Positions 1,000 to 19,482 of a stretch of 64,000 bases of DNA are shown here, in pieces (the first letter of the stretch is position 1; the number at the start of each line of letters is the position of its first letter). The notes beneath the pieces are model-generated. The model made no database searches. It had not been told where the DNA came from and saw nothing but the letters and a program-made list of their open reading frames with translations. Origin of the DNA: Haloplanus salinus (GTDB lineage: Archaea; Halobacteriota; Halobacteria; Halobacteriales; Haloferacaceae); contig NZ_QPHM01000001.1 of the NCBI RefSeq assembly GCF_003336245.1, forward strand, positions 248,001 through 312,000, given 5' to 3'. The position numbers and the translations under genes are program-made.

Positions 1000-3408
1000 T
1001 TACTGGGGATCCGATCGCTCGACGGTCACGTCGAAGCGTGCGCCGCCCGTGGCGGATTCCTCGACCGCGATCTCCCAGCCGTGTGCCCGCACGATCCGTT
1101 CGACGACCGCCAGTCCGATGCCGGTGCCGTCGGCGGTCGAGGAGTGTCCGTACTCGAAGATGCGGTCCCGCCTGTCCGGCGGAATCCCGGGACCGTCGTC
1201 GGCGACGTAGAACCCGGTCGCCGCGTCGAGGGGGCCGACCCGGACGGTGACGACTGGATCGGACTCGGCGTCAGTGCGTTCGCGACGTTCGTCCGTGGAG
1301 CCGTGTTCCACGCTGTCGTCGGCGTCGGGCCGACTGCAAGTGGAGCCGTGTTCCACGCTGTCGTCGGCGTCGGGCCGACTGCAAGTGGAGCCGTGTTCCA
1401 CGCTGTCGTCGGCGTCGGGCCGACTGCAAGTGGAGCCGTGTTCCACGCTGTCGTCGGCGTCGGGCCGACTGCAAGTGGAGCCGTGCTCCACGCTGTTCCG
1501 AAACAGGTTCTCGAAGAGTTCCTGCAGTCGACCGCGGTCCGCCCGAACGGTGCCGAGGGCGTCGGAACGGCACAGTCGTGCCGCGTCGGTGTCGACGCTC
1601 CGCCACGCGTCGTCGGCGCAGGCGGCGACGTCGACCGGCGATACCTCCCCGATGGCGTCACCCCGGCGAGCAAGCTGGAGGATGTCGGTGATGATCGCCT
1701 CCATCCGGTCGAGAGCGGATCCGAGGGGCGCGACGTGTTCGTCCGGCGCCCCCTCGGCGTCCGCGAGCAGTTCGAGCCGCCCGGCGGCGATGGTCAGCGG
1801 GTTCCGCAGGTCGTGGGCGACGACGCTCGCGAACTCCTCGAGTCGGTCACGTTCGTTCCGAAGCTCCGCCTCCGCCTCGGCGCGGTCGACGGCCGTCTCG
1901 ACGTGCGAGGCGAAGAGGGCGACCGTCTCGCGGTCGTCCTCGTCGAACGCGCCCGCGTCCGTCGACAGCAGTTGCACGACGCCGTGCCCCCCGATCGGGA
2001 CGCTCAGCAGCGATCGGTAGGTGGGCGCCGACGTCGATCCCGTGTCGGGGGGCGAGCCGCTCCGCACGTCGGTCAGATCGTCGATCATCACGGGGTCGCC
2101 GGAGCGGTGTGTCTCCCCCGCGAACCCGGCGTCGATCGGTTGTGGCGACGGGTCACGGACGGGATCGTCGCCGGCGCTCGCCACGGGCACGAGCCGGTCG
2201 CCGTCGACGGCCGCGATCCGGCAGGCGTCGGCCCCGAACGCCTCGTGACCGCCGTCGGCCGCCCGCTGGAACACCTCTTCGGGGGTGTTGGCCGCAGTGA
2301 TGCCGTTGACGACCCGCAGAAGCCCCTCGACGGTCCGGCTTCGTCGGTCCGCGCGCTCCTCCGCCACCTTCCGTGCCGTGACGTCGCGGAGAAGCAGCGC
2401 GTAGCCGGTCCGATCGCCGATCGTGTCGGGGACCGACGAGAACTGGAGGTCGAACACCCGCTGGCCGTCGGGCGTCTCGATCGTCAGTTCGGAGCGCGTC
2501 TCCTCGGCATCGGCGAGGGCGGCGGGCGTCGGCGCGAGTTCGGGGAGCAAGTCGGAGAGCCGTCGACCGATCGCGTCCGACGCCGGGGCGCCGACGACCC
2601 GCACAGCCCGCTGGTTGAGGTCGACGACCCGCCCGTCCGCGTCGAACACGATCGCCGGATCCACCATCGAACGGAACACCTGATCCCTTGTGATGGGCTT
2701 CAGATCCAGCCACTTGAACCGAACGACGCCGAAGGCGCCGGCGACGGCGGTCACCGCGACGGACAGCGGTCCGAAGTTGAGTCCGGGCAACGGGGCGTAG
2801 CCGAGGAGGTCCAGAAGAGCGGCCCCGCCGGGTAGCGTCGCGAACGACAACAGGACGGCGATCTGCCGGCGGAGGATGCCACGCGCCCCGAGCGCCGCAC
2901 CCGCGAGCAACAGGAGCGACGCGACGAGCAACGCGTAGCCGACGAGGACGTAGCCGACGAAGACGGGGGCGTACGTAACGTCGAGGGCCACGAACGACCC
3001 GAGACGAAGCAACTCCGCGTCGAGAAACAACGTCCGTACCGCCGTGGGGATCGCCGCGACGAGCATCAGGCTCGCGGGGGCGAGCGAGAGGAGGCCGAAC
3101 ACCCGCCGCGAGAGCCACTGCGATCGCCCGGTGTACCAGCAGACGTACGCCAGCCAGACGACCGCCAGAGAGAGGATGGCGGCGGTGGTGACGACGCGCC
3201 ATCGGAGCTTCGCCGCGAGCGTCGTCGCCGACAGCTGAACGGTGAAACAGAACACCCACGCGGCGCCGGCGAGCATCAGGAGCCCACCCAGTGTCGCCCC
3301 CGGCGTCTCGTCCTCGTGGCCGAGATACCGGAGGGACAGGGCGAACGCCGTCAGGAGGCCGCCGACGGACAGCAGAGCGAGTGTGTACGGGGTCGATTGA
3401 ACTCCCAT
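1000..3408 (-). CDS. Membrane sensor histidine kinase (7TM-PAS-GAF-HisKA-HATPase) with internal repeat
   Basis: 802 aa. Residues 1-230 hold about seven hydrophobic helices of the histidine-kinase N-terminal 7TM type. A PAS domain follows (about 245-355), then GAF (about 370-510), then the phospho-acceptor helix with VVAHDLRNP (His near 530). The ATPase N-box NLFRNSVEHG lies near 635 and the G boxes DDGPGIP and GTGIGL near the C terminus. Odd feature: just after the N-box, a 15-residue unit (SVEHGSTCSRPDADD) is repeated four times, inserting about 60 residues between N and G1 boxes. The frame stays open, so the kinase may still be functional. No cognate response regulator is adjacent. Signal unknown. 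Confidence 0.9.
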   Translation of the reverse strand: MGVQSTPYTLALLSVGGLLTAFALSLRYLGHEDETPGATLGGLLMLAGAAWVFCFTVQLSATTLAAKLRWRVVTTAAILSLAVVWLAYVCWYTGRSQWLSRRVFGLLSLAPASLMLVAAIPTAVRTLFLDAELLRLGSFVALDVTYAPVFVGYVLVGYALLVASLLLLAGAALGARGILRRQIAVLLSFATLPGGAALLDLLGYAPLPGLNFGPLSVAVTAVAGAFGVVRFKWLDLKPITRDQVFRSMVDPAIVFDADGRVVDLNQRAVRVVGAPASDAIGRRLSDLLPELAPTPAALADAEETRSELTIETPDGQRVFDLQFSSVPDTIGDRTGYALLLRDVTARKVAEERADRRSRTVEGLLRVVNGITAANTPEEVFQRAADGGHEAFGADACRIAAVDGDRLVPVASAGDDPVRDPSPQPIDAGFAGETHRSGDPVMIDDLTDVRSGSPPDTGSTSAPTYRSLLSVPIGGHGVVQLLSTDAGAFDEDDRETVALFASHVETAVDRAEAEAELRNERDRLEEFASVVAHDLRNPLTIAAGRLELLADAEGAPDEHVAPLGSALDRMEAIITDILQLARRGDAIGEVSPVDVAACADDAWRSVDTDAARLCRSDALGTVRADRGRLQELFENLFRNSVEHGSTCSRPDADDSVEHGSTCSRPDADDSVEHGSTCSRPDADDSVEHGSTCSRPDADDSVEHGSTDERRERTDAESDPVVTVRVGPLDAATGFYVADDGPGIPPDRRDRIFEYGHSSTADGTGIGLAVVERIVRAHGWEIAVEESATGGARFDVTVERSDPQ
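1295..1496 (-). repeat. 45-bp tandem repeat, four identical copies plus part of a fifth
   Basis: Units at 1295-1339, 1340-1384, 1385-1429 and 1430-1474 are identical at the DNA level. A partial fifth copy (1475-1496), one base different, is the original kinase N-box. The unit is 45 bp, so each gain or loss keeps the reading frame. Identity of all four copies implies recent expansion by slippage or unequal crossing-over. Confidence 0.97.

Positions 3409-18546: not shown

Positions 18547-19482
<936 letters not shown>

Follow-up and report, generated by a model that had tools for sequence, protein, structure and literature searches.

A 45-nucleotide two-hairpin element, probably mobile, in the N-box of haloarchaeal sensor kinases

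The ends of IS200/IS605 elements follow a model that combines an unduplicated target in the 5' flank, a hairpin near each end, guide motifs and a cleavage site. REP and REPIN sequences are short hairpins dispersed by a Y1 transposase. PARCELs are tandem coding repeats of palindromic DNA that spread within a genome; their 75-bp unit encodes an amphipathic domain of 25 residues, and as of the PARCEL paper none was found in archaea. In Haloquadratum walsbyi, palindrome-associated transposable elements (PATEs) and 52-bp IS605 derivatives that consist of the termini only are apparently mobile (PMC3119063). Rickettsia palindromic elements (RPEs) are inserted in protein genes and occur in RNA genes too (PMC2229807).

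Here we analyse a 64,000-nt stretch of the Haloplanus salinus genome (the window), in which a 45-nt unit is repeated in tandem within a histidine kinase gene. Like PATEs, the unit is haloarchaeal, has palindromes near its ends and no terminal inverted repeats, follows a 5' target of a few bases that is not duplicated, and is too short to encode a transposase; PATE ends that are fused to each other, at about 50 bp, also seem to move (PMC3119063). What sets it apart from PATEs is its length of 45 nt, an RAC target, an in-frame position within many protein genes, its occurrence in tandem arrays, variable stems that covary and mimicry of a protein motif; coding insertions do not feature in the available part of the PATE description (PMC3119063). 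With RPEs it shares palindromic, in-frame insertions in unrelated and conserved protein genes that are tolerated in the protein (PMC2229807). RPEs, however, are bacterial (Rickettsiales), measure 105–146 bp and have terminal inverted repeats, whereas the present element measures 45–51 nt, contains two separate hairpins, forms tandem arrays at an RAC target, favours a site in the kinase N-box and is confined to Halobacteria among the matches listed. PARCELs resemble it in their tandem coding organization and within-genome spread, but the haloarchaeal unit encodes 15–17 hydrophilic residues that are predicted to be disordered. Its layout resembles that of an IS200/IS605 end pair without the core, with a 5' target, guide-like motifs before the hairpins and a cleavage-like 3' GAC. 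It differs from such elements in lacking an internal transposase, in having no linked tnpA that we could find, in its 3-nt rather than 4–5-nt target and in the lack of conservation of its hairpin sequence. REPs are extragenic and carry a GTAG- or CGTC-type tag (PMC3733652), whereas the 45-nt element is largely coding and has no such tag. It represents a new family of elements, akin to PATEs and to the RPEs of Rickettsia (PMC2229807), and a literature search found no published description of the repeat.

The array in the window

An earlier note on the window's sequence had described four identical copies of a 45-bp unit directly after the N-box of a sensor kinase, lengthening the protein in frame. 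TRF reports a 45-bp unit in 4.5 copies at 1295–1496, with 99% matches and a score of 397, far above that of every other array in the window. The array proper consists of four 45-bp copies at 1315–1494 on the minus strand and encodes the peptide SVEHGSTCSRPDADD four times, followed by SVEHGSTDERRERTD. Copies 2–4 share one sequence, from which copy 1 departs by a single synonymous change (GAG in place of GAA); the count of four holds, and the claim that all are identical does not. The described position is correct, as the insert lies right behind the Asn of FENLFRN and ahead of the next beta strand. So is the in-frame lengthening: in an ORF and domain search of the window, the 802-aa minus-strand frame runs uninterrupted through the array. 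The features below include matches to R1, a covariance model of the element whose E-values are rough.

1000..3408, minus strand: histidine kinase gene (802 aa) that carries the array; domains HisKA_7TM, PAS, GAF, HisKA and HATPase_c
1495..1497, minus strand: AAC codon of the N-box Asn (FENLFRN), the RAC target before the first element
1450..1494, minus strand: element copy 1 (R1 match 1456–1497, E 4.8e-12)
1405..1449, minus strand: element copy 2 (R1 match 1411–1452, E 3.4e-13)
1360..1404, minus strand: element copy 3, same as copy 2 (R1 match)
1315..1359, minus strand: element copy 4, same as copy 2 (R1 match)
1270..1314, minus strand: displaced original N-box end (SVEHGST...) and/or decayed fifth copy (weaker R1 match 1270–1317, E 8.4e-10)

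Copy 1 is made up of AGC, hairpin A (GTGGAGC-ACG-GCTCCAC), TTGCA, hairpin B (GTCGGCC-CGA-CGCCGAC) and GAC. In the segment at 1270..1314, hairpin A is intact and hairpin B is missing. As read from the sequence, the working SVEHGS of the N-box appears to be supplied by copy 1; the leading copies would provide the N-box, with the last VEHG as the displaced original. AlphaFold models of the catalytic region (22 sequences) give a pLDDT of about 96 for the N-box helix and about 95 for the next strand; array residues 158–231 have values of about 44–50 and no secondary structure. The array is thus predicted to be a disordered loop between that helix and strand, and the simplest reading is tolerance rather than tuning of kinase activity.

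Elsewhere in the window, a degenerate Pro/Thr-rich coding repeat at 19212–19397 (periods 6, 30, 48 and 60 bp) is unrelated to the element. General hairpin enrichment in coding DNA was rejected as a cause of the arrays, because 7-bp arms are only about 1.4-fold enriched in the window.

Distribution, anatomy and target of the unit

We searched for N-box arrays as two GTNGARCAYGG motifs 18–48 nt apart, with the reversed pattern as control. The window's genome has 10 matches, in four kinases, and the pattern is present in 188 of 391 haloarchaeal genomes and 56 of 86 genera, where the control gave almost none; similar repeats in other haloarchaeal kinases, which the earlier note had tentatively mentioned, are thus real. 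Some 85,000 bacterial and archaeal species yielded at least 118 stretches, and 117 of the 118 matches listed are haloarchaeal. The one exception among them, from the Phycisphaerae (L129), was set aside as a chance match. Viral contigs gave no match to the N-box pattern, and a virus origin of the element was rejected. The arrays of 125 kinase regions begin directly behind the N-box Asn. R1, with its rough E-values, has 13–54 matches per Haloplanus genome, and also matches a genome without an N-box pair (G334); no Rfam family matched in the array-bearing kinase.

The unit lies immediately 3' of RAC (GAC or AAC) and reads RSC, hairpin A, NNGCA, hairpin B, GAC, each hairpin being 3 nt from an element end and the ends, RSC and GAC, forming no terminal inverted repeats. 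Hairpin A (GTNGARC-NNN-GYTCNAC) has a 7-bp stem and a 3-nt loop, the latter being AYG in array units (GTNGARC-AYG-GYTCNAC). A set of 173 units comprises 92 of 45 nt, 60 of 48 nt and 13 of 51 nt; the remainder have other lengths divisible by 3. These lengths go with different forms of hairpin B: 7 bp and a 3-nt loop in 45-nt units, 10 bp and 3 nt in 51-nt units, and about 6 bp and 10 nt in 48-nt units. The encoded peptide is hydrophilic and 15–17 residues long. One array unit with a period of 50, through a 2-bp insertion, causes a frameshift inside its kinase array (G381:C44:33502-33562). A subfamily at six loci (L377, L378, L393, L398, L406 and L409), in kinases and other genes, has hairpin-A arms of GAGGGAC/GAGGAAC instead of GTNGARC and encodes SEGxxPSG and EERSS. 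Strings of further, unrelated hairpins (GAGGGATCnnnGATCCCTC, GACGGCGAAGCCGTC) adjoin elements at L191, in an N-box region, and at L192 and L380; these are possibly other element families.

The arms of both hairpins covary. Among 238 distinct units, the Val and Ser codons have complementary third positions (V3-S3) in 87%, against 44% expected, and the Glu and Gly codons (E3-G3) in 89%, against 49%. These are purely synonymous positions, and such complementarity was reached in none of 2,000 shuffles, which ignore sequence relatedness. The same comparisons across neighbouring hairpins, made as a control, gave 28% and 35%. Both values lie below expectation, so that arms identical to those of the next copy tend to be avoided. 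In adjacent array hairpins the third base of the Val codon is identical 75 times, against 106 expected, a deficit such as loss of identical neighbours, or selection against them, would produce. Stem B covaries too; positions 28–34, for example, are paired in 94% of cases against 34% expected. A test of the named structure gave a covariation score of 0.398, compared with 0.144 for shuffled sequences and 0.04–0.08 for slid structures.

Two further features bear on what maintains these arms. Mismatches of the A.C type in stem B are at least as frequent as G.U on the sense strand, where G.U is not in excess, which argues against folding of the sense mRNA and for a process at the DNA level. Loops also co-occur with their own reverse complements (0.042, against 0.027 +/- 0.003 from independent columns). 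Template switching creates and maintains perfect hairpins (PMC8794818), and this excess is the footprint expected of it. A DNA-level process would thus fit the perfect, covarying arms better than mRNA folding does.

All 162 first N-box copies follow AAC or AAT, all 124 downstream copies follow GAC, GAT, AAC or AAT, and 35 of 44 other copies follow GAC or AAC. Because the element itself ends in GAC, the target is recreated and head-to-tail arrays can form. In N-box copies, hairpin A encodes V-E-H-G-S-T, and its loop (AYG or AYA) gives rise to a His codon in 160 of 162 first copies and in 123 of 124 downstream VEH copies; off the N-box the loops are diverse (GGA, GTA, CAC, AAC, GAC, GCG and others). 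Many of these off-box sites keep the N-box-like arm GTNGARC, so an origin of the element from the N-box is possible.

Insertions at other sites

The earlier note had taken the repeat for a duplication of the kinase's own N-box. That origin is unsupported: the 45-nt unit also occupies many sites outside kinases and lies 3' of tnpB, clean empty counterparts exist, and it is thus a dispersed mobile element that resembles or mimics the N-box. We scanned 464 kb of the window's genome for adjacent hairpins with no reference to the N-box, and recovered the same double hairpin in the PAS domain of another array-bearing kinase (C1:88415), 1.3 kb upstream. At this PAS site, the 45 nt distinguish two Haloplanus species, which have them, from seven without; the flanks are intact. 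The PAS-domain loop EWHNRVVTD is a second hot spot, where elements of different types have inserted independently in two species of Haloplanus (L340/L372, G172:C1:194071-194208; and G000:C1:87113-87160).

With a relaxed pattern, a NUDIX gene, the end of a ThiD-like gene and the region downstream of tnpB also yielded copies. At the 3' end of the ThiD-like gene are two tandem elements (L395/L299, G000:C1:1753900-1753976), and it is the element that terminates the protein, through a stop codon in the A loop (VE*). Further hosts off the N-box are MFS, metallophosphoesterase, Pyr_redox, SelR, NUDIX, abhydrolase, TPP-enzyme (MenD-like), AFOR and flavoprotein genes, and head-to-tail arrays are seen there too. 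In 40 sampled loci, coding copies have the same sense and phase, with RSC as a codon. The flavoprotein copy (L380) has an orthologue without the element; it was rejected as a clean empty site because the region is too diverged.

The tnpB region is the decisive evidence for the element's mobility. Exactly 45 nt are present in the 3' regions of 6 tnpB-linked sequences and absent from 13 related ones, with the empty-site junction CCAGCCGTC|GTTGACGCC. These 45 nt run in reverse orientation to tnpB. At L288 (G000:C1 near 2403600), L291 (C3:86985-87032) and L309–L313, the element lies between the stop codon of an IS605-type tnpB and an Rfam sot0042-like (omega-RNA) stretch. The orthologous copies L288 and L309 have inverted loops, TAC and GTA. 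Rfam finds only sot0042 and HgcC at tnpB, below their cut-offs and outside the 45-nt unit, and the unit was rejected as an integral part of the omega-RNA because 13 related 3' regions lack it. Judged on these alignments, the tnpB-linked copies appear to be insertions and not ends of the tnpB element. The PAS and tnpB empty sites both differ from the filled sites by exactly 45 nt, without target duplication, although 2–3 nt would be indistinguishable at the GAC flank.

The units have also spread within genomes. For spacers from different genes of Haloplanus, identity reaches 90% or more in 20.5% of pairs within a genome and in 0.7% of pairs between genomes (permutation p = 0.0005), and host kinases that share near-identical units are themselves only 34–50% identical. 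Orthologues of the window kinase have different units and fewer copies. Clear copies number 3/1/1/0/0 and 2/1/0 in two more groups of orthologues, and decayed forms occur in others. The earlier note had proposed variation between strains; in a comparison between species, with one genome for each, copy number is variable.

Origin of the array and mobilization of the unit

We consider that the window's array represents four tandem insertions of a non-autonomous, two-hairpin mobile element of 45 nt (variants of 48 and 51 nt), with a probability of about 0.8; that the unit as such is a mobile palindromic element is very probable. We infer a mechanism of transposition. Each insertion would regenerate the target, and the next element could then enter behind the Asn or behind the previous copy to build a head-to-tail array; for identical copies, such as the window's four, replication slippage or unequal recombination is an alternative. 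Where the element enters the N-box AAC, its own RSC-GTNGARC-AYG would code for S/A-V-E-H-G and leave the N-box intact, and the rest would do no harm as a disordered loop that separates the N-box helix from the strand behind it. As a safe site, the N-box would thus let kinases accumulate copies. Insertions there may be neutral, and mimicry may be the cause of the N-box preference.

The process would act on DNA, as a substrate for IS200/IS605-type single-strand transposition and/or as template-switch repair of palindromes. That the mobilization is specifically of the IS200/IS605 type seems to us a little less than an even bet. No convincing autonomous partner with the A and B hairpins around a longer core, and no parent IS605 element for the 45-nt unit, was identified in the loci examined. 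A search for the Y1 transposase (PF01797) was positive for only 267 of 391 haloarchaeal genomes and negative for several that have arrays (for example G289, G006, G009, G011 and G015), so a simple dependence on the presence of TnpA is unsupported. More tentatively, the units may form a class-wide Halobacteria family of minimal (45–51 nt) single-strand-DNA mobile elements under dual selection. In such a family, the palindromes would pair for mobility, and the reading frame would have converged on the N-box, with the result that an insertion restores the motif that it interrupts; the mobilizer would be a new or unrecognized activity, possibly linked to TnpB.

Exchange between paralogous kinases, by gene conversion or microhomology recombination through their shared N-box DNA and without transposition, would account for the N-box direct repeats that flank units and for concerted evolution inside genomes. 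It leaves the insertions in the PAS domain, in metabolic-enzyme genes and 3' of tnpB unexplained, where the flanks have only RAC in common, and as the whole explanation it is unlikely; part of the spread among kinases is probably due to gene conversion between their N-boxes. The palindromes could instead be kept solely by template-switch mutation during replication, with no mobile-element function. The excess of reverse-complementary loops, the lack of a G.U preference and the published precedent for making and keeping perfect hairpins (PMC8794818) fit this account, but the fixed two-hairpin architecture, the RAC target and the exact 45-nt gains do not follow from it. We regard it as distinctly improbable on its own, and template switching is likely to come on top of another process, not to take its place.

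Local tandem duplication of the N-box, by slippage or unequal recombination, with the array retained, as the earlier note had suggested, as a contingency locus for the tuning of kinase activity, would explain why copies 2–4 are identical and why orthologues differ in copy number (3/1/1/0/0 and 2/1/0). The unit nevertheless occurs outside N-boxes with clean empty sites and in unrelated proteins, distant paralogues have near-identical units in common, hairpin B has no counterpart in the N-box and no data require a switch; there is little likelihood of this origin. Still less probable are hairpins selected as functional mRNA structure in the kinase transcript, for translation pausing or RNA processing. 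The strong covariation, synonymous sites included, is what such selection would produce, but G.U pairs on the sense strand are not above A.C mismatches (rather the reverse), loops are inverted between copies, and copies lie in unrelated genes and in reverse to the tnpB transcript. An assembly artefact, to which identical short tandem copies are prone, is scarcely credible given a frame open across 802 aa and such arrays in 188 of 391 independent assemblies.

Repeated insertion of a mobile element, the reading we prefer, means that annotation of haloarchaeal kinases, N-box alignments and tnpB/omega-RNA boundaries should be used with caution, as they include element sequence. It makes directly testable both the minimal size of mobile DNA and what moves elements that consist of termini only. 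Protein-coding palindromic mobile elements, best known from Rickettsia, would pervade a whole archaeal class at near-minimal size, and one favoured landing site would be the catalytic ATP-binding motif of sensor kinases, preferred because the element re-encodes that motif.
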